NCBI RefSeq assembly: GCF_019649055.1
Contig: NW_026570234.1
Location: 1,302,001 to 1,366,000, forward strand
Length of the DNA: 64,000 nucleotides
Direction of reading: 5' to 3'
Origin: Paramacrobiotus metropolitanus
Lineage: Eukaryota; Tardigrada; Eutardigrada; Parachela; Macrobiotidae
Shown: one piece after another, positions 476 through 49,683 of the stretch
How the letters are laid out: each line of letters starts with the position of its first letter
Numbering within the stretch: the first letter of the stretch is position 1
Notes under the pieces: generated by a model
Told to the model about the DNA's origin: nothing
Databases searched by the model: none
Seen by the model: only the letters and a program-made list of their open reading frames with translations
Position numbers and translations under genes: made by a program

Positions 476-3400
476 TTACCAGGACGGGATGTAACTTAGT
501 CGTTCTATCACAAAAACTTTATCATCAGACTGCAACAAGAAATCTTTTGGTGGCGTTGTGATCACGTATCTCCTCAGCGATCTAGACTCTTTGCCTTGTT
601 GCTGGATTTTCCTGTATAATCCAAAGCATAGAATGTTGTACCTTCGAATGGCATCCAGAAATAACTGTCCGAATGTCGATCTCTGCAAAATATATTGCGA
701 ATTCCCAATGTCAAAATTTATTTATTTATACGCGCTGTGTTTTTAAAGAAACAACACTTTACGAAATAAAAGCATGTGTCGTAAAATAAGGGCACTGAAA
801 AATTCTAGCCAGGAATAATATAGGAATACTGTAATTTGCAGTATTTACCGAATGCCTAGCGAATCTCACATCCCCGATGTCGATCTGAATCAGACGGCAG
901 CGCTCCGGATGTGGATGTTTTTGTGATAGATTCGGACCACCGATCAACCCGGCACCCTCAGCGAGAATCTGCTCGAATTCCGGCGTTATTCCTCCGAAGA
1001 TCAGTGCACGCAAAACGGATAGTGTGAACGGATTAAAGTATGACTAGAAAAACAGCACAAATTTTCAACGATGCTATACATCCGTGCGCATGAAGCATGT
1101 TTTTGATTTTTGCAGCAAGAACCATGATTTCTAGTCTTTATCGTGGAAACATTAAGTGCTAAGTTGCGACTTACCGAAACCAGTAACGCCTGCAACACGC
1201 TCTGTGCAAAAGCATTGCCGCATGCAAATGGTTCCGCCATAAAGAATTCGTTAATATCGAAATCATCTTGCTCCACAAAATTAACATTGGAGTCGTTTAC
1301 TACAAAACAAATAAAACTGTTAATTAGCAGATATTTTGACAATGATTATACGAGTAGTATCCGAATTCAACCCGAATTCAACCCGATTCAAAATTTGAAA
1401 ATACTTCTTACCTAACTCGGTCAGGAGAGGAATGGCGTAACCTTTAACAACGCTTGTGCGCACAATCTCATTATCCACAGGAATACTTTCCGTGAGCGAC
1501 TGCTTTTGCAACATTGCTATAAAATAAAAAAAACTGGTCTACAGAGAATGTCAGTATCAGTGTTACAGTAACCCTCTTACAGATACCGGACACTTACGAT
1601 TAGCATTTCTAAGGTTGACGGATGCGGAATTCCGCCAGCTTCGAGTAACGGGAACGGAATCGCTAAAAAAATTATTTTCCTGGTTTCCAAAGTTCATGGC
1701 CTTTATGGTTAATGATGTCAGGATAGCGTCCTTGTCCGCCAGAAGTACACTGTCGACGCCATTATCGGAGGTTGCGGTAAGCAGAGCGCACAGTTTACAT
1801 GTGTGGATATTCACAGCACGCAGATCGGCTCGACTCAGTCCAAAAATCTGCAAATTCCAAATAATTTGCAACCGCGGCAGTTTAAATTTGATGCTCGTAC
1901 TTAGTTCATGACCATTTACACCCCAAATCTAATTTAAGGAATACGTACACCCAAGCGCATGACAGATGTGTGCTAACTGGGCAATGGAATTGTGCAAAGG
2001 AACATAGCATGGATTATTTTCAAAAACGTCTACGATTAATTTTTTTGAAAACATACACCATTTTAATGACGATAGGAGCCGCAAATATTTATAGCCTGCG
2101 ATTATGTCGAATGCCTCTGCGCACATACCTTGACCATGGTAATTTTTGGAAAATTGCAAACAGATGGCCATTCCATACTTAAAAACTGGGGATCACCCAA
2201 AATCACAATGTCCTTCAGGTCTTCATAGGCTGTAATGCTGGATCGTAGGGGCATGACGAAATTGTTCAGTCCAATACCAGATGACGAATCGTTAGCAAAT
2301 ATGACGAGAACGACGTGGTTTTTAAAATTCATCTTGGCCGCTTCATATCGATCCTGTAGCAGAAACACCATGATATATTCTCAAAGGTCATCAGTTTAAC
2401 TGCAACATACCGCTTCTGGAACCATCTAGCGTGCAGTTATCGAATAAAAAAGCGAACAGAAAACCTGAACGGTTAAACTAAGCACAACTTACAACGAGAA
2501 CTTCTTCGTAAACTTTCGGTGGGCACCACCAGAACAGACCAGTTGAGTCATATCTCGGACCGCCAGACAGATCGAGGATATTGCCGGCGTCGTCCCGAAT
2601 CGGCTCGGCTAGTGAGCTGCGATTCCAGTTAGCGCTAAAAAAACATAAATCAGTAAAACACAGTTAAAAAAAATCTTTCCAGCGGGTACGTACGGACTGC
2701 CGTAATATCGCATGAAGTACACCATCTTTTTCTGGAAGGATGTAAACGTCACCGGTCTATCCCCCAGACGGGTGAGTGCGCTGTCAGGGTCGTCATCGGC
2801 ATCGAACCCATTATTCACGGTGCCCGGTCCGGTTCCGTAGCCGGTGCTGGATGTGTTCTCCAACAGGAAAGCATCGGATCGCGTCGAATGCAAACTGTTA
2901 CCGGCTAAGGATACCATACGATCCAAAATGGACGGAGAATGCGGAGTGGGCTTGGGTGTCATGGGGCGTACAGATCCATTTGACCCCGATCGATTAAACC
3001 GGCGGTTTTCTGACCAAAAAATATTACAAACAGGGTTATCCACTGCACTTGCATTAAGTAATTAAATGAGCAGTCATTAAAGCGGCATAGTTAATCCTAC
3101 ATAAAAATCTTAACGGTGTTTCTCACGCCTTACAAAAATAAATTTTCGATAACAACAGAAAAATAGGTATTTATCATATCTTTTAATATATTTCATAAAA
3201 ATATATGTATTTTCTGATTAAAGAGACAGACTACGAAAATTCAAAACGAAGCATTACATTTACCGGTAACTAACAAAACGCACGCACTCGGTAAATAAAT
3301 AATTTCTACCTGAAGTGCTACAATTGCACATTTTGATCGCCTCCGGCTCTGTAATGTCATCGTGACATTGTCGACAATATATTGACATTCTGGAAAAAAG

Positions 3401-6400
3401 GGTTACACCCATTTCAAATTAAGCCAGTTCAATATAATTTGTTTGTGAAGGTGCGGTTCCAGAGTTGTACAAAGTGTTCCTACCGTTGAACATCTTTGGC
3501 AGAATCCGCGAAAAAGCATCCATACGATCCGCGCTTAACCACGTAGTTTAACGCTGGATTTAATATCAGGGCATGAGAAAATAAACTCTCATCGTCAGCA
3601 TTTTGTTGCTCCGTAATTGCAAAGAGAATCAAGTTTAATTTAACGTAACAGGTCCTGAAAATTTAGAAACGCCTTAAATAATTAAGTCGTGAATATGTTA
3701 AAGATAGTGAAATAGCGTACGGAGACATTGTACACTTACTCCAAAATGTCAATATATGTCTGATTAGTAAAGGCATCGCTGATTCGTTCAGTGTACATCT
3801 CAATTCCAGTTCTGCAAAAATAAAGATAGTCGTTAGTTGTAAGCGTACGTAAAATGTAGTCAGCCAAGCTTTTCCGTACCCTTGGGTGTAACTTTTTAAC
3901 CAATCCGGCTACAAAGACAATAATTTAAAATAGTTCTGAAAAACGCAATTAGTGCTTCAAAAAATGGTTTAAACTTACCCAGTCCATTTCCACATCATTG
4001 GAACGGGAAGCAAAAAGATTAGCCATCAGAGTGGTAAAACCAGGTGCAGCGCAACTCTGAGCAAACAGTCCAAGTTTAATTTCCGGTAAGCAGATGATGT
4101 CGTCACCGATATGTGGATTCCAGTTTGGTATGCTTGTAAGATAAGTCTACAAATATGCAGGCTAGCCATCAGCAACGATGCATAAAATACGGTGTATTTT
4201 GTCCTGATTCAATACGCTGTATTATACACAAATTATTTTACATGCTGCAGAAAAAATCAGATTGTATACCTTGCTCCGATATTGTAAAAGCTGCACAATT
4301 ATGCGTAGTTGAGGGTTGAAATTTTTCAACGACACCACACACATGATGTTGTTGTTGTCTTCGATGTCGGCGTTAGCATTGGCTTTATTGGCCATGACTA
4401 TGGCAGCGTCGGCTTCGTGAAGGCGTACGCGGTACAGATCATGGGCCACAAGATACGATCCTTGGAAATATGAGATGTTCAGGGAGTTGGTTTTCAGAAA
4501 CTGTGCATAATGCAAATCAGGCTCCGCTCTGGAAGAAAAAAATGGTTTTTCAGTTACTACTTACCAGTGCTGATAGTCATTTAGACACAATACTCACACT
4601 CCAAGACAAACAATCTTCAAATTTCGAACGTTCCGATCCGGATGGAATAATTCGTCAAACAGGCTGACTATTGATGCAAATGTCACATCCCCGCAAACAA
4701 CAATGTGCCTGTATGATTACAAATTACAATCACAGCTATTATACTGCAACCGCAATTAATAAGCTCAATATCCATAATTATTGCAGACTTAATGTACTAG
4801 CGGGGCTTCTCATTATTGTGTTACAATAATTTTAAAAGAACGCGTTGTTGCAATAATTTAGGCCATAAACAACTACAGTGGATCGCGAAGTTTTCGTACA
4901 AAGGAGTCTGACCTTTGGTTCAGTTTGTTACGGTGGTCCCCGTTATATTTTCTGGGTGTTTCCATAAGATCGACAATGTCCGGTAAAGCGATACCGATGA
5001 CTGCCTAAAATAAAAATAAAACTAATTTACGTGTGAGTTTAAGATTTGCGACCTAAACTCGAAATCTGTTTAGTCATAATGCATCGTCAGCAAAAAATTA
5101 AAAAAATGTGTACATCGAGGTTTATCTGGACGTATTATTTTAGAAAAAGATTCTTGCTTCCGTCACACAGGGTTATTGTACCCATGATACGTACGAGAAC
5201 GGTTAACACGAGGAGCACGTTGCTCAATTTGCCCAGGACGGTCTTCACGTTAATATCCGGCGACCCAATAGTGGCCATCGTACCAAAAGCGAAGTAGGCA
5301 AAATTCCAGTAATTGAACCGTTGACCGTCATAGTCATCCGTCCATGGATCACCAGAATTTTCCAGCTAATAAAACAAAAACAAACACATTTTATCATAAT
5401 TATTATATTTCCGGAACACAAACGTGCGAATTCATACCAAATGAAAAAATCCACCGGCAGCCAAAAGAACGAGAAGCCATGTCAGAGCCAGTTGTAGCAG
5501 CTTTATCTTCACGGTTGACGTAATCAAATCCAGAGAAGCCAAGATGGTAGCGATTTTGCGAAGATAAACCACACGCAAAAATTTTAAGCCTGAAAATACA
5601 ATTTAAAAAAGGTTTATTTTAAGCCTGCAGTTTGATAAGTTTTATATCGAATAACTAACCAATCCAATCGCGGTCCAGGGCCAAGCCAACAAATGCCGGT
5701 GGCACAGTAAAATAGTCTACAATACTGTAGAGATTCCAGATAGCTGACATCTTGTCTTGAGCAGCCAAGAACTGTAATGTGCAGGAATAATCTGGGCATC
5801 CGCATACTACAGATACTGGAACTACAGGTGCGACAAATAAAAACTTAGACGTACTCGGAGGATGAAATAGACCAAGAAGAAACAATTAAAAGCGAAATCC
5901 ACTTGTTGGGGAATATTATAAACCCACGGCTGGCATTGCTCCACATCGTTCATGTAACTACAGATAATTCACTTAAACATAACGAAACATTTTCTTTTTA
6001 CGGGAAAAAATGTAACTCCGCAAGCAAAAATATCGTCACGAAGTCTTTTCTACTCTGTATATTCACTTACTAAGAAACGAGGTTGTAGTAGATGAACAGC
6101 GATGCCATGCTGAGGCAAAATGCTAAAATGGTCTGCAAGAAAAGATTACTTGATTACTTATTAGCGCAATGCATTAATTAAACAAATGCACAACATCATA
6201 AACACAATATCTCATAAATGTTTCCTTCTCTGCACAAAAGCCAAGAGTAAGTAACTGTACACTTTCGTAATTTTTTGTTCACCTACCAAGGTCTGTCCCA
6301 GCCTGTATCGCATAGATACCAGGTTATCGGCGGCATCCCGTATGACATTAAAAAGCGGTACTTGTACTTCGTTTTCATACTGCTGAAACCATCGTTTGAA

Positions 6401-6893
6401 TGTAATAGGATTTTCTGGATACGTGCTTAAATGTTTCCGATAGGCATTAATCCACACCAGTACACGCACGATCAGAACCAGAATGGACAAAACGAACGGC
6501 GTTATTACACTGGACAGCAGGAATATATACCATAACCGATCCAATCCCAGTACAACGCAGGGAGCATGATAACTGTAAAGTAGAAAAGCTATATCGTACG
6601 TTCATTTCTTATAACAGTTTATCAGATGTCTTTGCAAGCACATTAACAGATTTCATGAAGTTACTCAAATTTGTTCGACAAAATATCAGGACACCAACTA
6701 AATAACAGGACTTTCAGTGACCTTACTTAGCAAGTTTTTCTCCGTCAATAGCCATGTCGCAATTAAAGAGCAGACTGCGAGATCAGACAGGGACTTCAGC
6801 ATCCGGAAGATTTACGACTTTTGTGACTTACAAATCATTCTGAAAACACGTTACAGATCGAAAGTACGTACCGGAGGACCACATCTTGATCAT
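476..6893 (-). CDS. slo-like: Slo/BK-family potassium channel homologue with altered selectivity filter
   Basis: Family role: a membrane tetramer gated by voltage and Ca2+. Twenty-three exons join in phase to about 1152 aa: 6893..6868 (tentative start), 6572..6287, 6132..6071, 5957..5855, 5771..5660, 5589..5438, 5365..5195, 5004..4913, 4708..4598, 4528..4270, 4146..3979, 3908..3880, 3811..3740, 3654..3484, 3389..3310, 3009..2694, 2634..2493, 2353..2129, 1847..1598, 1516..1412, 1299..1175, 1043..849, 682..476. Order: S0 ([13 protein letters not shown]), S1-S4 (S4 [13 protein letters not shown]), S5, pore, S6, RCK1 ([17 protein letters not shown]), a linker with CHDDIT and a Ser/Pro stretch, RCK2 ([12 protein letters not shown]), a reduced calcium bowl (QDDFDINEF) and PFACG. 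The filter is TIGSPD (residues 279-284) instead of TVGYGD. The protein stops soon after RCK2, without a long tail. The homology is clear. Whether it conducts K+ is doubtful. Confidence 0.93.
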
Positions 6894-7613
6894 GCCCAAC
6901 TATGCACCGTGCCAAACCATCCTGTGAATGTAATTCACGCGTTAGATATTTCCTGCCTGAGGGAATATAACATCACGAAAATTTTTTCCTGCGACTGCTA
7001 GCGGGCACGTGAAATAAGCATACTTATTGTCAGTAAACTAGAGATCGTTTCTTTCCAAAATTATGGCAGATATGACTTTTTCATATTGTGCCATATAATG
7101 CACGTACAGTATCTGTACCTGTACAAAACAAGTGTTTGTTGAGCTGGTATTGTTCGTGCGGCTACGAAGTCCATGTGAAAATTAACGTGAACAATTACGC
7201 TGGGAAAGGTGTGAATGAATTATTATTACGTACATGCTACGTACGTAGCAAGGTGAAGTGGACAAATTTTGTGCTTTTTGCTTACAATCAAACCCCTCAT
7301 CTGAAAACACTTCCATATTTTGGCAACTTTCAGCGCGGCATCAAAAAATACATATCTGTATCTACCCGTAGTAATAATATGAGATAAACAATCCATCCTA
7401 CTGGACGCTGATCGGGTATAGTAGTTAGTAAGTACTGTAGCGCACGCTTTGACCTATGTCAAAATTTGCATACCTAGTTTGGTTTCCAGTTTTATGTCTT
7501 TGAACTTCAATCAGTATTCACAAATGAAGCCGATAACCAACAAAACATGTACCAGGCATGCATACAAATTACAAACGACGAACATATCAAACGTAACAAT
7601 ATTCAACGCGTGG

Positions 7614-8726
7614 TTAAGCCGGTGCAGGGGTTGATTGTTGAGATTTCTGTAGAAGATACTTTTCATAGTAGGTCTGATACATGGGAATACCCCTATAGTA
7701 CGAAAAACCATCATTCAACGGATCCTGTGTGGTTGTCCCGCTGGTGTCGGTGCTGCCGTATGCTGTGCCTCCCGAGTAGCTATCCGTCAGAGTGCCATTT
7801 GTATTGTATGTGTAGCCGGCACCGTATGTTTGCGTGCTACCGCCACCATGTGGGAATCGGTTCATAATAGGGATTACGTATCGTGGACCACCGTCGAACC
7901 ACTCAGTCCATGGGTAGCTAAAAAACCCTTTATGTCATATATGAGGTGTGAACTGGACGATATTCACTGGACCGAATGCAGAGTAAAACATTCACAGCTT
8001 ATCAGGTAGTTTCTAAATACTTAATAACCGAAAACGCAACAGTGTTTCCAATGCCAGTAAATTTAGTAAAAATACTAGTATTCAGTAGTACACTAATAGT
8101 ATTTAGTAAACAGTAATTTAGTCAATTTAGTATCTGGAATGTTTGTTTGATTTAAAGGCACATAAGAGTTTCGATAAGACAAAATAAAACAAAATACCGT
8201 GAAAAATATTTTATTCGGTTTCGCGAGACGTAATAATTATCTCAATCTTAAAGATGTAAAGGTTGTAAACAATTATCAATGTAAAAGGATAATATTAACC
8301 ACCACTCGGTTGGACATTCGGACTTACCCATAATGACCGTAGTACATATTCGGCAACCAATAAGGTGTTCGGAAAAAGATCGGCTTTTCATCGATCGGGA
8401 CCGGTTTCTTAAAATACACTCCCGTTCCCTGATTATACCCATAGTTACTGCCGCCCCCGCCTCCGTAACCTCCCCCACCGCCCCCGTAACCCGACCCTCC
8501 TCCGTAGGAAGCCTGTGGTGCAGCACCACCACCGTAACCACTCGGCATACCTCCAGCATATGGGGACTGGGAGTACACACCTACGGAACAATCACTGTGT
8601 CACGTCGCATATTAAGGTCACATTACACGTTTCCGAGCTACACCGCCAAATCAGTCAAATCGAGATCTTTGTAAATTTACCGATAATGAACACTCCAAAA
8701 CAAGCGATTGTCAGGTTAACATCCAT
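7614..8726 (-). CDS. Secreted glycine/tyrosine-rich protein (cuticle- or matrix-like)
   Basis: Three exons (8726..8681, 8580..8328, 7917..7614) join in phase to 200 aa. Residues 1 to about 19 form a signal peptide (MDVNLTIACFGVFIIG). A Gly/Tyr-rich tract follows, with GYGGG and YGGGG repeats. Next comes an aromatic segment (KPIFFRTPYWLPNMYYGHYG, then YPWTEWFDGGP), and the tail is rich in Gly, Ser and Thr and ends in APA. No Cys follows the signal region. I do not recognise a family. Low-complexity Gly/Tyr proteins of this form are often structural components of cuticle, shell or adhesive, but that is inference. It lies tail to head with the Slo-like gene on the same strand, with about 0.7 kb between them. 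Confidence 0.82.
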
Positions 8727-9974
8727 TTTGAGGACGATACTCCAGCGATCAGAAAACGGTATCTCCCCGCGTTGGGGATAGACGGTTGTCGGACCTCTTT
8801 CTACTGTAAATTATTTCGAGACCCGAACGAGAATTAAGACCTGCCTACGTGAAAAGTGCACTGGTGGCACAGATTGTGAATACTACCCACTCATCGCACG
8901 AAGAACAGCAATTGACATTGACCATGAGGTTTTCAGTCGGCACTTCTTCTTTGCCACTTCCGCATCTTTACCGGTCAAACCGCTATAAGATGGTAGTTTT
9001 TGTACTGGTGACAAATGTCGAATCATTTGAGCCGGTACTACCGTACTTTCAAGTCCGAAGAGACAATTACGTACGACGCTCTATGTTATTTGAGCAATTA
9101 ACAGAAATCGCATTATACTGCCGTTTTTGGAGGCAATGCACTATCACCTATAATAAATCAGCTTTTGGTTTCTTTCCACCTACACAGCTTCTTACCACGT
9201 AATTATTTCAGAAAATATTCCAGAGGGCACCAATATTCTCGCCACGGATCGTGCGCTCGTTTGTTCGCGTGCGGCAGCAAGAGATATATTCAACTCATCA
9301 CTTGTCAAAAGCAAAAAATTTCTATAACTCTTCTTCTCAATATTACTCAACAGTTTCAAAATCAGTTTACAATTATGATTCACAAATTTTTCACATAATA
9401 GTTAGTATGAGTGCACGAAAAGGGAGAGTATTTTCCTCAAAGAGGAAGTATTACAGTAACTTTAATACACTTCCACTTTTTCACATTATAATTACTTAAT
9501 TGATCTGAATTATGTACGGAATTTCAAAATGTCCAGCCATTTATACATATCCGCATTCGTATGATTGTACGTGTAATATATTAATCTTATTACTGTTTAC
9601 CCATGGTCAGTTTATGGTCAGTCAGTTCACTAAAATCTAACTAGAATGGACTACGTATCTTCTTGAGATTCCGGCCATTGACTACGTTAAACCGCTGGAC
9701 GTCATGCGCGATTATCAGAAATTCGGAACCTACTAGCATTGTGTGAATTTTCAGCAACTTGAGCTAGTGTACAAAACAAAATAACAATATATAACAAAAT
9801 TCTAATTACAAAAGACTAAAATGCAAAATCTATAAATCAGCTTTTTACAAGTTGGGTCTTTACAGTTTACACGAAAGAAAAATTACAGTCAAAAGTGATA
9901 CCGAACTTCGCTTACCGATTAACAACTCGCTAGTCGCTAATTTCATGGCCATCCCTGGCTCCTCGTAAACTGAA
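8727..9974. other. Intergenic region
   Basis: It lies between the start of the glycine-rich gene and the end of the 9975-10598 gene. Several short open frames exist, but none has coding character or splice signals that link into a gene. The 5' part should hold the promoter of the glycine-rich gene. Confidence 0.5.
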
Positions 9975-13861: not shown

Positions 13862-16800
13862 TCAATTCATCCAATCGCTTACAGCCTTGCAAGTCTGCTG
13901 AAGTTCTATGAGGATATTCTCATCCGCCAGTTGCAGGCGCATCGCGACTTTCAGATAACTATCCAAACATCGTGAATAATGTCCCAGAATCACCTTCCTA
14001 CAAGCACACATAAGGTCATTCATTTTCCATTTTTTTCCACAAGGCAAATTGTTTCTCTGAAATAAAACGTAATTCGTACCTTTTATCTTTTGGAAGAGAT
14101 CTACTGAGTGTGTTTCCCATCACGTTATTCACAATGAAAATATGCACCCGAAGCAAATGCGGCGACATAACGATCTGGAAGATACCACGATGAAATTCAG
14201 ACTTCTGGTACCATAATGCCGTTTTTTTCCGCAACATCTTGAATACTCACATCGGCTGTGTATCTCCCAAACAGCTTGTGGTAGACGTCAATAATATCCA
14301 TAATGCTCTGACCGAGACCTTGATGAATGCAGTCAAATACGAAAACCGGATCCTCAAGAGATCTTCTCGTTGAAGCATATTTTTTCTCGAAGCCTTCCAG
14401 CACACTCTCTGTAAGTCACGACACATGATTTAGGTTTTAATAAAATTAAACAGAAAAAATTATTCATGAGTTCACGAGTTCATGAATTCAACCACAATAA
14501 ACGACATCCAAAACACTTACCCAAAGTACAATACTGATCTGAGTTCGACAAATGAGATCTGACTCTAATTATTTCCTCTGTGATAAGAGCAATCAATGCA
14601 TCGCGAGATATTTGCCGTCGTTCGCCGAACTCGATAGCTGAGAACAAAATATTCATACCACATTTTAAATTCAATTCAAATTAAAACAAAAGCAGCAAAA
14701 TTCCAGCCATACCATTTTGGAAAAATTTGCCCCACGTATGAACAATCAATCTGGAGTTAGGAGGTTCACCACAAATACCCAGAATGACCAGCGTCCATTG
14801 TGGCATGTTGATTTCGGTTACCAATTGGAATAACTAAAAACAGTATCTATTAGCTGTTATTACGGAGCAAAGGAAGGAGTAGCAGCATCGTGCTATACCT
14901 TATTCACATCCAATAATTCATACATCACCCGATTCATCGCGTCCGGCGTGACGGCAACATCAAAGTCCTTTCCATCCACGTGGAGATAGATGTCCTTCTG
15001 AACGCTCGCCAACTGGAACGTAAAACTGAGTATGGGAAATGCACATAAAAATAGCTAATTAAGTATTTAAATAAAGTAAAAAAGTATTTAAATAAAGTAT
15101 TTAAATAGCTAATTAAGTATTTAGCTAATTAAGTTCAGAACTATGGAAGCTGTTTAACAGTGTAATAACTTTCTAAGTTTACCGTGCGATGCGTTCGAAC
15201 AGTGATGAGAAATTCCGATAAATCTGGTAAGGAATTCTGAATTTCCATCGGCTGGCAGAGAAAATCAATTTTCAACAAGTAATCAACACGTTCAGTTATT
15301 GGAATGCGTGCAGTTTCATGAACAGCCAGCTGGAACAACGCCTTCGCAGCCGTCCATTTATCACCGGATCTCTCGCAACAATCGGCTACTAGTTTTAAGA
15401 ATCGCACTATACCCTCCACATCAGCTGGCGGGAAGGATGCCAGTTTTCGGAAGAGATAATCCTTCAAGTACGGCGAACCACTAGCCATGGCGTACTGATC
15501 TAACTGCATACTGAAGCACCACTCAAACACCGAGAAATGCAACAGTACATCATTGGATTGCGTGTAAATCCAGTCAAGAATGTATTCCAGTTTCCTGCGC
15601 ATCTCCGCCGGCTTGCGCTGCTGAGTACCCGAACTGGACCCCGACGAGCCGGACGCCAGAACATCCAAATCAGACAACACTTTGGCAATAATAAAATAAT
15701 ACTTTTGTCGACGTTCCATAGCGATTTTCCCCAGTGTATCGGACTGCGACTCATTATTTACAATAAACCGAATGGCGTAGTTCTGGGGATCAGACTGCAG
15801 AGCTGCCAGACAGCACAATTCGACCATGGCTTCGTAGAATTCGCACTCCCTCAACCGATCCAGAATTTCTTGCAGTCCCATAATTGTCGCACTACCGCGA
15901 ATGGAATTCAGGGCACTGTCCAAAATACTCAACGCTTCCGTGTTGTCACCGCTGGCCTTAGCCTGGTTGATCAGAGTCAGCACTTTCATGGTCACCGCGT
16001 CGTCGGCATCAAATAATTTGGGACATAATTCTTGAATTGTTGAGCTTATTCGCAGTATGCTTTCGGTGTCCGTACCTTCGTCGATGTAGCGTTGGTGAAT
16101 GGCTTTGATAATTCCCTGGAGGATGCTGCTTCCGGTGGGTGAATTCAAAAGGTCAGGGAACGTGACCTGCATCAGTGTTTCCTTTGAAAACGCTCGGCTC
16201 ACATAATCCAGAATCTGCGATAACCCTTCTTGTAAAAGAAATTCCCAGAGCTTCAGTATCTGTATGGTCCTTTCTAGAATTGCGGCTAATGACTTGATGG
16301 ACGTCATCTCGACCTTGGTTGCGTTTATGGCAGTAATGGCATCTTCGGATGGCATTCCGTGACGAGTGGAAGCACGACCTGGGTAGAATAATTCATTCCA
16401 GTTGGTTTCGAGGTAACGTTTAACCAGCGACAACTGTTCGATGAACAATGGAATGTCAGAAGCTGGAATGCCTGTAATCCATGCAACGGAGCCTGCAACC
16501 AACCATTTCTAACCACACAGCAAATCAAGAGAAAACATAATTTTTGGCTCATAAGTGGGTTACCTATATGTCAGCACAAATTTCAGCTGAAGTTACCCTT
16601 TTGAGATAAAGCTAAACAATTCAGGCTATTACGCGAATTTACAAACCTTTGTACTCGGCTCCGAACACAAATGGATTAATTCCCCATAAGGGTCCCAAGA
16701 TGCGACCCACGAGATAGAAAAAGGCGTCATGTTTGGCAGAAAAAATAATCGGACTCGTTGCAGTTTGAGAAGGTTGTTGCACCATTCTACCGTTCAATGG

Positions 16801-19129
16801 CAGCTGATTCTCAAATACTGGCTCACCACCATAAACCCGAAGAATTTTTGTGGCCAAACGCTGCACTTCCGTTGAGTTGGTCGTACAAGCGAGGTGCAGA
16901 GCTAGGAAACAACTATGAAATGGCGGCATGGATTCGATGAATTCTCTCATCGGGGCTGACATGGGGCTGTGGGTTCGGAGCATCTTTTCCATGATATCCA
17001 CGGGGTAAGACTTCTCCAGAATGTAGCACTTCTTCGCCGTGAGGGCAATAATGTGCTTTCTACTAGAAGTCAGTTGGTTTAGCGCAAGAGATCGTAACCG
17101 TAATATCAGTGAATCATCGGCATGCTGCGGTAATTCCGATAAGTGTTCAATATGATAAGGTACTTCCATTACGCTAACACTCTCTCGATATTTCTCCTCA
17201 TAAATATGCAGATCATTACTGCATGAGATGATATTGTCCTGATCTTCTCGATCATCGGGAGCGATCATGAGAACTGTACCGTCCAGGCTGTACGAATTAC
17301 TCAGATTCAAATGCGTGGTGATTTGCGAAACAGGAGTCGATGGGTTGTGTCCCGGTGGAAATCGGATGTGACCCAAAAGAAATTCTCGTGGCCGATCGCC
17401 CAGACCACTGGCACTGACGGCAAAGTACAATCGCAAACCAGCGGAAGTCAGAAGAAAGAAGGCGTAGCGAGCACTTTCCCATGTGTCCACGGGGTGAATG
17501 GAAATTATTTGTTTTATCTGCAACCGATCCACATTTCTCAACAGAGGCAAGGCTTGATTAACAATATTCTGGAAACTGAGATGAATGTGACGAACTCCCG
17601 ATGTGCCATCGATTCCCAAATCGTATAGGTCCACGTTATTATCTTTTCGAAGCGTATATAAAATCTGGAAAAGAACATTCTCAATAAATACAACTAAATA
17701 CATTAGCTGACAATATAACATACTTTACGAGTATCGTCCAGAATCATCTGAACCACAGGCTCTTTCCTAAACAAGAGATGGAATCCGGGAACGGCGCAGG
17801 CAATGCGCTCATACACAGCCAGCGTACAATTGGCCAGTCTCGGCCCAAACCACAGCCATTTCGTAAACATGGTCTGCTTGATGTTCTGCAATTCCGACAC
17901 ATGGCCCTCCACATTGCCGAAAAAGACTCGCCCTTGTTTTGTGCACTGAATTTTACACAGCCGTTGATCGTTCGTCGAAGCTCGCAACACAAATCGTCTG
18001 GTCTCGATGACGTGCTGCACTCCAGTCAACGTCACTTTGGAGAATAAAATTTCCGTTAGCGTCGCCGCGACGATACAGTATTGAGCTCCCAGATACATTA
18101 AATCAGGAGACCAAGTCGGCAATAATCCCACAGCCGTGACAAATTCCGGATACTCAATGCAGGTTGTCTTCGCCGGATCTTTCCACGGCCAAACATACAA
18201 TTTCGTGTCCAATGCTACCCAGGCCATCTGTAATTCGGGAAACGTTCCCAACGATGAAAAGCCGCTCGTATTGGCGTTGATTTCGGCCGTTATCACATCA
18301 TGCACGGGAAATTCCTGGGATACTCGAAAATGAGGAACATCGCTGGCGACATAATCATCTGGGTGAGAACCACTGGCGCTGGGTACTTGTGGGAGACCTA
18401 CAAGTTAAGCGACACAACGATAAAAAATACACCATTAATTATTAATACAACTGTAATACAAAGTACTTTACTTATTATTTTGCTTCTTAATATGATTCTA
18501 AAGCAGCAGCGTCTGGTTGTAGCCATGAGAATAATGAATCTAAATCAATTCCTTAGTATGTATACAAAACACAATTAAAATACATAAGATTCGAAACTGG
18601 CAAAAAAATAATTCTCTGAGTTTCTCTTACCTGCATTGGTGGCTACCAGTTGATCGGCAATATCCGCCTTGGCCAAATCTTTCTTGATGCATTCTTCCAA
18701 ATGGAGACTGGCTTGCTGGAGATCGACGCGGTCCTTGTTGGAAAACGATGGGAACTCCAAGGAGTCATTATCCATGTGCATGGGAAACCCGTGATCCATA
18801 TCGTCATCCGAACGTGGAGCCAGTAAAGATACAGGAGAACGTGCCGTGACATAGTGTCCCGAGATGGTTTGATTGAGCTGGTTGGCGCCAACCTGAGCGG
18901 CTAAGGAACTACCGTGAGGGGAACTACCGAAACTGCGCAGCGGAGAACTTGAGCTGGACTGCAGCAGTAGCGAAGTGCCCGGTTCCGTTTTAATGGGGGA
19001 GAATGTTCGACGATCCGGAGATCCACTGATCGCTGACAGATCGGAAACACGCGGCAGATTCCCGATACTACCGGTTCGTAACGGTCGATCCAAGGGAGTC
19101 GAGTGAGAAGCAGGATTCCAACCGTACAT
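13862..19129 (-). CDS. NUP155: Nuclear pore complex protein Nup155 (Nup154)
   Basis: A scaffold nucleoporin of the inner ring, linking the pore to the nuclear membrane. Ten exons join in phase to about 1423 aa (human Nup155 is about 1390): 19129..18631, 18397..17724, 17664..16647, 16492..15183, 15012..14899, 14833..14713, 14637..14521, 14408..14251, 14204..14080, 13997..13862. After a Ser/Pro-rich start comes the Nucleoporin_N region (LEECIKKDL, PVHDVITAEIN, MAWVALDTKLYVW). A long alpha-helical Nucleoporin_C region follows, with the motifs DIYLHVDG, FVFDCIHQGLGQS and VYHKLFGRY. The extension at the N-terminus (PDRRTFSPIKTEP) is richer in Ser/Pro than the core. The intron between exons 8 and 9 is only about 46 nt. 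The last junction was chosen because the earlier candidate acceptor runs into a stop. Confidence 0.94.
15048..15135. repeat. AT-rich tandem repeat in a Nup155 intron
   Basis: Imperfect direct repeats of AAGTATTTAAATAAAGT and GCTAATTAAGTATTT, inside the 15013-15182 intron. Confidence 0.7.
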
Positions 19130-20649: not shown

Positions 20650-23554
20650 GACAACCGAAACATCCTGTTCTTCTTGAGAACATCCGCATACGATGTTGTA
20701 ATGTCAGAAGCGTCAAGAACAAACGTGAAGAAGTGAAATTAGTTTTGCTCGGACAGTGATGTGACCGTTCTTACTGAAACATATGATAGACCATTTATGA
20801 CAGGTTCTGATTTTGCTGACCTGGATAACTACAATGTCTTTCGAAATGGTAGAGCTGATGGTCGTGGTGGTGTTGCTGTTGTTATCAGAAAATCTCTTTG
20901 TGCTTTTCCCATGCCAGAGCTTAATACTCCTTCCATTGAAATTTTGTGCGTTGAGTCTCGTGCTATTGATCGTATTTTTATTGCTTTCTATGCGCCCCCT
21001 GATAAAAGTATTCATCTTGTGCCTGCCCTGATTAAACACCTGCGTTCTAATTTCTCTTGGTCTATTAGCAAAATGCATAATCATGGGTGATTTCAATCGG
21101 CCTGACATAAATTGGTCTAATAAAACCGCAAGAAAACCAGCCAGTCGTGAGCTGCTGTCCGCTATCAAAGAATTCGAGATGATACAGCTAGTCAACTTTC
21201 CAACCAGGAAGAACAATTGTCTTGACTTGTGTCTCATCAGTGCCAACTCGCTTTTTTCACCAGCAGTTCCCATCAGCCCGCCCTCCTCTACCAACGATCA
21301 TATCGGTTTTGAATTTTCTCTGAAACTAAAGAAATATCGCAGAAAATTTCGTACTGTTAAGCGATGGAAAATCGAAAGCAATAATGTTGGTCAGTTCATC
21401 GACGCGTTAAATGTTGTCAACTGGGAAAGTTTATTTTGCAATTTAAACGTTAATGAAAGAGCAGATAAATTTGAAAATGTTTTTCTCGAAACAGCAAAAG
21501 CATATTTTGAATTTAGTGACGTGAAAATTCGGATTGGTGCAGTGAAATATCCTAGAAATATTAAAAAAGTAATAAATTCAAGAGATCTTGCTTTTCGTAA
21601 ATACCGACAGATAAATCTACCGAATTTGAAAACTAAATGGAAAAAGTTGTCAAAGAAATTAAGTGTGCTGCTAAGAAAATTTGAAAAACACAGACTTTCT
21701 GATATTTCCACTGCACACAGAAACAATCCATCCAAATTTTGGCGGTATATGAAATCGATGAATGACCGCATCGGTATGCCACCTCTCAAAAGGCCGGATG
21801 GCACGACGGCAGCTACAGATAACGAAAAAGCTAATCTACTGAACGCTCTGTACCGCGAGTCTCAGTCGACCTGCAACGCGCACTGTACTGGCTCTGATTT
21901 AAATTTAATTTGCGGCAACGAAGAAAGGTGGGAAATCTCGGAGCTTTTGATTTTTGAACAACTTGCGAAAATTTCTGTAACAACTTCAAGTGGCAAGTAC
22001 GAAATCACTAACAAACTTCTGAAAATTGCTGCTCCAGGCATTCTTGCTCCGCTCAGATTAATTTTTAATGCCGCTATCAATGAAGGTGTGTTTCCGGTGA
22101 AGTGGAAGCATTCGTTTATAACAGCAGTACCGAAAATCTCTGCAGATCACAGATTGCCGGGTAGCTATCGACCAGTTTCAATGTTGAACCCAGTTTCAAA
22201 AATTTTTGAACGTTGTCTTGATCAATTAATTCGTGAACATTTGAACAAAAATTCAATACTTCTGGATCACCAGTTTGCTTACCGGCATAAAAGGTCTACT
22301 GAGCTACAGCTATTTCTTTTTGTCAAGTCTTTGAACGATTTCAACACAAGCGGCATTGCTGTAGATGCAGTATTCTTGGACTGCTCAAAAGCTTTTGATA
22401 AGCTTTCCCACGAATCCATCATAAACGCGCTGATCGAAATGAATCTTCCCAGTCACATCGTACATTTGGTCTCTGATTACTTGAAAGATCGAACACAATG
22501 TGTGACAGTTGGAAATGAGTTTGCTCATTCGTTACCCGTTAACAGTGGTGTACCGCAGGGTTCAGTTTTAGGGCCACTACTGTTCATTTGTGTCTTAAAT
22601 TTCATTCTCCGCGCATTAAAAAACGGTAGCGCCGCTCTCGTTTGTTGCAGATGACGTAGTTATTTTTCGCCCCATTACTGAAACAGGTGACAGTCAGCTG
22701 TTGCAGGAAGATCTTACTTCTCTCAATGAATGGCTTGCTAGCAAAAAGCTCAGTCTAAACGCTGCTAAGTCTGCCCACGTTCACTTCTCAAAACAGAAAT
22801 CCTCGGTCTGCCCATATTATTACAGTATCGATAATGTTACGATTCCAAATTGTGATCATGTCAAACACTTGGGCATATTCGTTGACCGAAAACTAAATTT
22901 TAAATTAAATAGTGAAAATGTAGCAAAAAAATGCAACCGAAAAATCAGCTACATTAATCACATTTTCCGTTATACTGATTGCGGTGCTCGCATACGACTT
23001 TTTGAGTCTCTTGTCCTCTCGGTCATCGATTACTGTTGCTCCATCACGCACCCGTTATTCAAACAGTCCGCTGATCTCTTAGAACGTTGCCAGAGAAGAT
23101 TCACTAAATCCTTGCGACTCGGCAACAATGTTCTAAATTATGGTGCACGGCTAAAAGAGCTTAAATGGGATGATTTAATTACTCGCCGTTTAAAAAAAGC
23201 GCTGTTGTTTTGTATAAATTGGTCTTTCGGGTGATTCCTATGGGTGATCAAATCGTAACTCCTCTTACGTTTTCGGTCTCTGCGTTTGAGTCTGTTGCAG
23301 GAAACACAAGATCATCCGAGCGTCTAATGAAACATCCATGTCCTATAAAACCTGCCGCGACGACCTTTTGTGGGATAACAGTGACTACTGACCACCTGTC
23401 CTATATAAACACCCTCGCCTCCATCTGGAACGAGCTTCCTTTGCAGCCAGTAGCCTATGTCACATTAAAAGCCTTTTCGGAAGCCCTGGAAACCGTGAAA
23501 TTGAATGTGCTGCCGTCGGTTGAAATCTTAAAAGCCAATCTTTACTCTAAATAA
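20650..23554 (+). pseudogene. LINE ORF2 remnant: endonuclease and reverse transcriptase, frameshifted
   Basis: The endonuclease part shows VRSVKNKREE, TETYD, GGVAVVIRKS and GDFNRPDINW. The reverse transcriptase shows YRPVSMLNPVSKIFE, AVFLDCSKAFDKLSH and PQGSVLGPLLF. The catalytic FVADD box is at about 22640-22660, followed by the thumb region (NEWLASKKLSLNAAKS) and a C-terminal domain. The parts lie in different frames: breaks occur near 20757 (stop), 21085, 22640 and 23215. The product would nick target DNA and copy the element RNA, but this copy cannot make a full protein. Confidence 0.85.
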
Positions 23555-26497: not shown

Positions 26498-28543
26498 TCA
26501 TAACACGGAGCGGGCTCGCGGCCTGTGGGAAGTTGCCGTTGGTGGGTGCAGATATCCCGATCCCAAAGCAACCGTTCGCGTGCAGAGCGGCAGATTTTCA
26601 TCATGATGCATGTGCGTCGCGCTGGCCGGCGCTGATGCCGCTCGTAATTGTCCATTCAACAGCGCATTGTGCTGGGAATCGTAATCCAACTGCTTGGGCT
26701 TCTGCTTGCACATCATACTACGCAGACTGTCCATGCTAAGCTGGAATAGTCCGTAGATGATGGGATTGATGCAGCTGGAAAACCATGCACCGCACTGTGC
26801 TGCAATACTGACCGCACGAGGTATGTGCTCCTTCATACGGTAATCGGTCCATACGTTCAGTAAGGTCACCGTGAAATACGGTGACCAACAGATTAAATAT
26901 GACGCCAGCATACATAGTGTTAACTGGATCGTCCGCATTTTGGCATGCGATAAAATATTTGTTTGCATGTAGGTATTACGGCGTAGTACGCCGGATGCCT
27001 GGTCATGCTCTCGGCTCTTCTTCCACACCGCTAACGCTATTTTAAGGCCACAAAATCCCATGAAGCACAAGGGGATTACGAAGACGTAGATGGCAAGCCA
27101 TGTTACATAAAGCTTCCGCTGCCATGCGGCGGTGTAGCCCTGCGAGCGGCATGCCATTCGGCGCGATCCATCCGGAAGTGTCCCGGTGTCCACCTACGCC
27201 GGATATACGACAAATCATGCATGTGTGTTGTTGCAGCTGCATGTGACAAGTTAATCTTCGAAGTTTAAAGACTTCCGGTCATGGAAATGCATCTGTGCAT
27301 CGTACCGGTTTGTGTTTTATAGCCAGCCAATACAGTGCATATACTCCACGACAGAAAGTCAATCAGATGCAAAAAAATGTAAAAACGTTAATCCTGTCAA
27401 TAATTCCAAGCCCACGCCGCAGATTTTCGGAAACAGATCGCAAAATACGTAACTTAATCAACATAGTGCATAATCTTGCGGTGCGTTAATCTTGTCTCTG
27501 TCAAATGAATTTAAACTTTCCGCACAAATATCAGATTTTTAATTTAACACAACCAGCAAGAAATCAAAAATAGTGAGTAATTAAGTACTTAACAGCACCA
27601 TGCTGAAAAATTATTATTAGCAATATTAAAATGCTAAAATTTACTCACGTACGCAGATTTTCGTAGTACGAGTATTTCAAAACATGCAGATTAGATCAGG
27701 ATGCATTTACCGCAAAATAAATTTTAGCCTTATTTAGTAACATACGAGTATTATAATGATTACGACCCAGTTTCTCATGGTATTTTCCTTATTTTTCTCA
27801 TAACATTTTTAAATTTCATAAAAATTTGCAGTACCAGAACAAAAACGAAGATGTGAGGAACCGCAACGACAAACGCCAAAATCCACGAAATGGCGACCAT
27901 TCGGCGGCTGCGCGCAATGGAACGCGACCAGTTCAATGGGTACAAGATCGCTTTATAGCGGTCATAACTCATGCTCATCAGGAGAAATGCGGTGCTGGCA
28001 AATAGCAGACATTGCACATAGGATAAGCCTTTACACGCAGCATTTCCATACGTCCATTGCCCAATTTCCTCCCAAAGTATTTCCGTTGACATACTCACTA
28101 TCGCGATGAAAATATCGCCTGTAATTTATAAAAACTGTATGCAGATAAAAAAAATATATACTTCTAGAACATACTGTACTTATGGTAAACTGTGTATTGT
28201 CGAGCTAGCGCTATAGCACTTCTTTATATATATGACAAAATTTGCATAAATAATATTTCATTCTACATAAATAACATAATTATATATATCTTATAAGCAA
28301 TACCGACATACCCACAGCCAATGATAAAATGAAGATGGACACAGATCTTTTGCATCTACTCGATCGTCCCAAAAGAATCAATATAACGGAATTCCCAATT
28401 ATTGCCATTACCATCAAAATAACCATTAAGACAAAAAATTCCGTGGACTGATGAATCGGATCCAAGATGCCGACTGGTGTGTTCAGCTGTGCGGCAGTTT
28501 GTGAACAGTTTGAACACAGTATCGACATTTCCGGTGGCATCAT
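26498..28543 (-). CDS. Rhodopsin-family (class A) peptide GPCR
   Basis: Three exons (28543..28312, 28118..27835, 27193..26498) join in phase to about 403 aa. The N-terminus has an NCS glycosylation site. TM1 carries GNSVILILL, TM2 LAVGDIFIAI, the extracellular Cys is in ACKG and TM3 ends SYDRYKAI (DRY). TM4 is MVAISWILAFVVAVPHIF, the loop-2 Cys is in MACRSQGY, and TM5 is VTWLAIYVFVIPLCFMGF. TM6 has AKMRTIQLTLCML and ICWSPYF, and TM7 SSCINPIIYGLF (NPxxY). The MRT-before-TM6 and CWSPY pattern resembles the vasopressin, CCAP and GnRH/AKH receptor group. The ligand cannot be named from sequence. It should couple to G proteins at the plasma membrane. The first exon lacks a classical signal peptide, which is normal for this class. 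Confidence 0.9.

Positions 28544-46844: not shown

Positions 46845-49683
<2,839 letters not shown>

Follow-up and report, generated by a model that had tools for sequence, protein, structure and literature searches.

A Slo1-type gene of the water bear Paramacrobiotus metropolitanus whose product probably lacks a K+-selective filter

TVGYG counts as the motif that defines K+ channels; to our knowledge, natural full-length relatives of the voltage- and calcium-gated channels that lack it are rare. Among the described channels with other filters, NaK is a bacterial protein with two transmembrane segments. As set out in excerpts of PMC5052707, NaK (TVGDGNFS) and NaKTs (LPMGNGPLSP) combine the K+-channel fold with an altered filter and non-selective conduction, and NaKTs tolerates proline: its proline-rich filter, PMGNGP, gives a calcium-activated non-selective channel in which the site of calcium action is the filter rather than RCK domains. 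The same excerpts give the filter of CNG channels as TIGETPPP. For Slo1/BK channels, Drosophila Slowpoke (7pxe), Aplysia BK (5tj6) and human BK (6v22) served as our references. According to a passage of PMC5531438, two water bears carry a duplicated calcium-activated potassium channel.

Here we describe a gene of the Slo family found in a 64-kb stretch of the P. metropolitanus genome (hereafter the window; C14:1302001-1366000, GC content 40.4%). Limited literature searches returned, among the matches listed, no published description of Slo genes with filters of this kind. Where BK/Slo1 has TVGYGD, the codons ACT ATT GGG TCG CCG GAT specify TIGSPD, which shares Thr, the first Gly and Asp with the canonical motif and has Ile for Val, Ser for Tyr and Pro for the second Gly. 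Its inner half (Thr-Ile-Gly) is retained, as is an acidic residue at the outer end. Using phmmer, TIGSPD was aligned under TVGYGD of fly Slowpoke and TVGFGD of Aplysia BK, and together with the translation this bore out the original prediction of the motif, both in its position (Table 1) and in its codons. The further claim of a residue-for-residue match to Slo1 held against Aplysia, where the turret aligned without gaps, but not fully against fly, where one gap of one residue was introduced. Backbone angles needed at the filter glycines are unattainable for proline. On this structural ground the substitution excludes canonical geometry at the outer filter only, the T-I-G half being retained, which narrows the predicted conflict between proline and the usual carbonyl geometry to that outer part.

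The filter resembles that of CNG channels in having T-I-G followed by non-aromatic residues and no GYG. The likeness of TIGETP ends with T-I-G itself, as CNG channels continue with Glu-Thr-Pro, the window gene with Ser-Pro-Asp and its sister gene C3, described below, with Gly-Ser-Glu. Unlike CNG channels, the window gene has a filter of K+-channel length and a calcium-type RCK ring, and no cyclic-nucleotide-binding domain was found among the Pfam matches (E up to 0.001) of its 1143-residue product. NaK keeps both filter glycines in its TVGDGN filter, which the window gene does not have. According to the excerpts of PMC5052707, NaKTs is likewise a bacterial protein with two transmembrane segments that keeps both glycines and carries its prolines elsewhere; the window gene has S0-S6 by homology.

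We modelled the gene as 22 coding exons running from 6571 down to 476 on the minus strand. The frame is open throughout, and all 21 introns have GT..AG ends and matching phases, with no in-frame stop, in line with the predicted integrity of the splice sites. The product of 1143 residues excludes the first coding exon, which lies upstream of S0 and is absent from the model. One donor, at 4913 (GTCAGA), is weak in sequence and was picked by Slo homology. The alternative donor for the same exon (which starts at 5004), at 4877, was rejected, since it adds 12 residues without counterpart in Slo homologues. Residues 12-1136 of the product aligned with residues 47-1141 of Drosophila Slowpoke (phmmer, E 2.8e-238), and Pfam matches above cut-off comprised PF22614 Slo-like_RCK in two stretches, PF03493 BK_channel_a, PF21014 Slowpoke_C, PF00520 Ion_trans and PF07885 Ion_trans_2. 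Full-length homology and Slo-specific domains agree with the family assignment made earlier, and the two Slo-like_RCK stretches, with their calcium ligands kept, agree with the claim that both RCK domains are intact.

Table 1. Features of the TIGSPD gene, in positions of the window.
Feature	Position	Strand	Basis and remarks
S0 and S0-S1 linker exon	6287..6571	-	Gene model and phmmer
S1 exon	6071..6132	-	Gene model
S2 exon	5855..5957	-	Gene model
S3 exon (IVDYFTVPP)	5660..5771	-	Gene model
S4-S5 exon	5438..5589	-	Gene model and phmmer; fly S4 counterpart GLRFLRALRL
Pore exon	5195..5365	-	Turret, pore helix, filter and first part of S6; 57 codons, phase 0; acceptor ..attag, donor GTACGT
Selectivity-filter codons	5255..5272	-	T-I-G-S-P-D replacing TVGYGD; translation and phmmer
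Late-S6 exon	4913..5004	-	Acidic residues at the BK inner-mouth ring positions; donor by homology
RCK1 / BK_channel_a exons	3310..4708	-	4708-4598, 4528-4270, 4146-3979, 3908-3880, 3811-3740, 3654-3484, 3389-3310; calcium ligands kept
RCK1-RCK2 linker exon	2694..3009	-	Gene model
RCK2 / Slowpoke_C exons	476..2634	-	2634-2493, 2353-2129, 1847-1598, 1516-1412, 1299-1175, 1043-849, 682-476 (stop in last)
Calcium bowl NFVEQDDFD	1256..1282	-	Coordinates counted by hand from exon 1299-1175; two side-chain aspartates kept

The end-to-end likeness to Slo1/BK extends over S0-S6, two RCK domains, the calcium bowl and the RCK1 calcium site. In the phmmer alignment, NFVEQDDFD of the calcium bowl stands against QFLDQDDDD in Aplysia, and we take its aspartates to be the equivalents of human D895 and D897. 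The RCK1 calcium ligands are also retained, as the Asp of FHPD and the Glu of IEMYTE, presumably human D367 and E535. At the inner mouth of the pore, the acidic pair is Asp/Asp in both this gene and C3. Besides the filter, three positions set the gene apart from Slo1/BK. The three S4 arginine positions, which we assume to correspond to human R207, R210 and R213, are occupied by Lys, Arg and Tyr, so that the series is partly kept, with the middle Arg in place; an RCK1 Met, presumably at position M513, is Ser; and the S6 glycine of fly (LLVGLAIF) is Val (VLTVLAVI). Owing to the Tyr at the third S4 position, the Ser in RCK1 and the loss of the S6 glycine, gating of the product may differ from that of Slo1. 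These residues were read from the gene models, because an automatic table of key residues errs at exon junctions: it printed Q for the S2 arginine of the window gene, where the model has R, and S in the E535 column of C3, whose model reads EMYTE.

Several other features were noted in the window. Just upstream of the gene, at 7600-8730 on the minus strand, a Gly/Tyr-rich, repetitive, coding-looking stretch recognised by eye perhaps encodes a secreted protein. Long open frames occupy 15141-18404 (minus strand), where 15141-16508 matches Nucleoporin_C, and an open frame at 21032-22654 (plus strand) carries reverse transcriptase and endonuclease-reverse transcriptase domains of retrotransposon type. 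Two further open frames on the minus strand match rhodopsin-family receptors (7tm_1; 26498-27193) and aminotransferase class I/II (48355-48798).

The sequence comes from a single assembly, and errors occur in long-read assemblies, so we considered whether the filter arose from faulty assembly or base calling, or whether another pore exon is spliced in instead. Both explanations appear extremely unlikely. Going from TAY GGN to TCG CCG takes at least four base changes clustered in two adjacent codons with the frame unchanged, and the paralogue C3 is changed at the same residues. Translation of both introns flanking the pore exon gave nothing pore-like and no second pore exon. A six-frame scan of the 64-kb window for T[VIL]G[YF]G returned one match only, in a stop-flanked stretch at 48805 on the minus strand; an exon with an intron inside the filter, the arrangement seen in the paralogues C45 and C107, would go undetected by this pattern. 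An alternative pore exon, named in the original prediction as an outcome that would contradict it, was thus seen neither in the flanking introns nor, in unsplit form, anywhere in the window.

C3 (C3:424500-434400) is a full-length sister gene with the filter TIGGSE and an intact calcium bowl and RCK1 Glu. Its automatic model has imperfect stretches. At the Tyr-Gly pair of the canonical filter it has Gly-Ser where the window gene has Ser-Pro. Synonymous sites between the two genes are saturated (pS 0.79-0.87 in S0, S1-S4, pore and RCK regions, 0.74 in the linker), which makes a dN/dS ratio unusable; the comparison of pore and RCK exons proposed with the original prediction is therefore only indirectly informative against C3, and regional protein identity was used in its place. 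Identity amounts to 47% in S0, 55% in S1-S4, 57% in S5-P-S6 (53% in the pore exon alone), 48% in RCK1, 49% in RCK2 and 22% in the linker, and to 46% overall. With S5-P-S6 at 57% and the RCK domains at 48-49%, the pore shows no faster decay than the remainder of the protein, and within this one gene pair it appears to drift no faster than the RCK sensors. Decay, recent or slow, which would make the gene a pseudogene or one under relaxed constraint, could account for the loss of one of the best-conserved motifs of K+ channels. We consider it very improbable, as had been argued from the start: none of the 22 exons has a stop or a frame change, the pore is not faster than the RCK domains, and at synonymous saturation the protein is still 46% identical overall to that of a second full-length gene with a filter of the same kind.

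To place the gene among its relatives, we searched the genome (169.8 Mb in 533 contigs). The BK_channel_a family gave 25 exon matches, and combined with pore-exon searches using four queries it revealed at least 31 Slo-like loci including the window gene, some of which may be fragments (C18 and C23 have 49 and 92 aligned residues). The filter could be read in 29 of the 31, the exceptions being C107_101k and C18. It is canonical in 14 of these 29. Thirteen have TVGYGD or TVGFGD (C183, C45, C24, C63, C16, C22, C325, C14_1074k, C14_1231k, C107_129k, C107_122k, C107_86k and C23), and C107_113k has VGFGD, preceded by an uncertain junction. By homology C183 is the orthodox Slo1 of the genome; over S4-RCK1 it is 69% identical to fly Slowpoke, compared with 43% for the window gene. 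Non-canonical filters were found in the other 15 loci, two of which read TIG (the window gene, TIGSPD, and C3, TIGGSE). A region of about 235 kb on C14 holds four Slo loci, at 1074k, 1124k, 1231k and 1307k, among which all three kinds of filter occur. Five loci are also clustered on one strand at C107:83000-130000, of which the one at about 101k has no pore exon in the stretch read.

The third kind of filter has Asp at the first filter glycine and occurs in 13 loci (C120, three on C11, C14:1124k, C295, C46, four on C105, C103 and C283), with Asp present in all 13. Its variants include LIDLSG, LLDLSG, WLDLSG, VFLDVTS and similar sequences, and five genes are of LDLSG type and eight of LDVTS type. 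When C11_18k was compared separately with BK structures by phmmer, the Asp fell under the first glycine and the filter aligned without gaps. A Tyr-Gly pair six residues ahead of the Asp is invariant in all 13 genes, and in S6 a Tyr and a Gln are invariant across the 12 rows that have sequence in that region. For none of these genes was the late-S6 exon with the acidic ring recovered; at the ring positions C283 has K and L and the other rows are gaps. Estimates of dN/dS (NG86) in the pore region were 0.09 for C46/C105_365k and for C105_197k/C105_219k and 0.13 for C103/C283, values that are rough given dS of 1.1 to 2.0. These were the three usable pairs of five tried; C11_18k/C11_551k and C11_18k/C11_466k were saturated in the pore. 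The invariant Asp possibly forms a carboxylate-ring filter, which may resemble the TLESW filter of bacterial Na+ channels.

For one of these genes, C14_1124k, a partial model of 620 residues runs from S0 into RCK2. Pfam assigned Slo-like_RCK and BK_channel_a to it and gave no match to Ion_trans or Ion_trans_2; this automatic model has imperfect stretches and one unresolved junction. Its filter is LIDLSG and its calcium bowl, FLDQDDDD, is near-perfect. It is the sole bowl recovered from the Asp-filter genes, as most of the other stretches fetched end short of that region. In the D367 column, Asp is present in four of the five LDLSG-type genes (one unread), and Asn in five of the eight LDVTS-type genes (three unread). 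Taken together, these observations support predicted calcium sensing for part of the clade only.

We then built a tree with the nine filter columns masked, comprising 28 of the loci and fly Slowpoke (29 rows) and leaving out C107_101k, C18 and C23 as too short. The window gene and C3 grouped with support of 100/100 and the 13 Asp-filter genes with 100/99, the eight LDVTS-type genes on a long branch (2.07). The Asp-filter genes are like the window gene in having the Slo scaffold, in having lost the canonical filter and, in most of them, in a YNGQ-like turret (YDGQ in the window gene, YNGQ in C3); they differ from it in the Asp, and the node uniting all 15 non-canonical genes, although present in the best trees, is weakly supported at 74/49 (72/72 under LG+G4). 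Placing the TIG pair beside the Slo1 orthologues was not clearly rejected by an AU test (p 0.051, or 0.076 with C45 added). Given these values, the tree suggests a single origin of all non-canonical filters but does not show it, and we do not claim one.

The best reading of these data is that the TIGSPD gene is an intact Slo1-type gene under purifying selection, the product of which would lack a K+-selective filter. It belongs to the Slo family by homology but does not carry the K+ signature, and we therefore do not class it as a BK K+ channel. Loss of the outer filter alongside retention of the calcium ligands, the gating ring, the inner-mouth acids and the pore points to a maintained, calcium-regulated cation pore with poor discrimination between K+ and Na+. 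Of the two functions suggested with the original prediction, a non-conducting regulatory subunit and a channel of changed selectivity, we lean tentatively towards the second; expression, conduction, non-selectivity and calcium gating of the product are all features that we infer. Calcium binding to the RCK ring would open a tetrameric pore in which the inner ion sites remain and the outer ones are lost, and cations would pass with little K+/Na+ discrimination, as through a CNG- or NaK-type filter set on a BK scaffold. The retained Asp/Asp pair at the inner mouth is as expected of a cation pore. In passages of PMC8567085, a change of a filter glycine in human BK, G354S, increases Na+ permeability and lowers conductance, an inexact precedent as that glycine is retained in the TIGSPD gene. 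Further precedents, also inexact, are other filter-glycine mutants that lose selectivity (PMC11251424) and the NaKTs filter, with its prolines at different positions.

A second account, which we favour less but regard as a serious possibility, is that the product is a non-conducting Slo subunit, which would co-assemble with canonical paralogues through the gating ring and tune or silence them, or serve as a calcium-sensing scaffold without ion flow. According to the same passages of PMC8567085, the human substitution G356R, which affects the glycine replaced by Pro in the window gene, 'may destroy' the filter; this agrees with a loss of conduction and counts against a cation pore. The 14 loci with canonical filters offer possible partners, the RCK domains and their calcium ligands are kept, and conserved sensors together with a conserved pore would also be expected of an obligate heteromeric subunit. 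A pore that does not conduct, on the other hand, need not keep its inner-mouth acids, nor the conservation of S5-P-S6 relative to C3 that equals or exceeds that of the RCK domains.

K+ selectivity could also be retained through an unusual filter geometry, since the T-I-G half is intact, and excerpts of PMC11251424 report wild-type-like K+/Na+ selectivity of KcsA G77A in a flux assay. In the same excerpts, however, BK G354S, GIRK2 G156S and Shaker G376A lose selectivity and KcsA G77A is non-selective in simulations, and the window gene has substitutions at the two positions that follow the first Gly, one of them to Pro. We consider retained selectivity unlikely. The weakly selective cation pore remains the account towards which we lean, and the gene offers a testable case of whether a filter without GYG conducts in a BK scaffold.

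A broader scenario, which we hold to be doubtful, is that repeated duplication of the BK scaffold produced a branch that gave up K+ selectivity and then diversified into the CNG-like T-I-G pair and a sister set of at least 13 Asp-filter loci, whose four-aspartate ring would make them RCK-gated Na+/Ca2+ rather than K+ channels. The genes with LDLSG filters would still sense calcium, and the eight of LDVTS type may have lost the RCK1 calcium site. If this were true, a new class of cation channels built on Slo would have arisen, and the hyperpolarising feedback provided by BK would have been turned into a depolarising one. In the window gene the calcium ligands are kept and the K+ filter is lost, and with 14 further Slo loci likewise without it the genome holds a natural experiment on the conversion of a K+ pore. 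Speculatively, such channels could bear on how water bears handle ions during drying.
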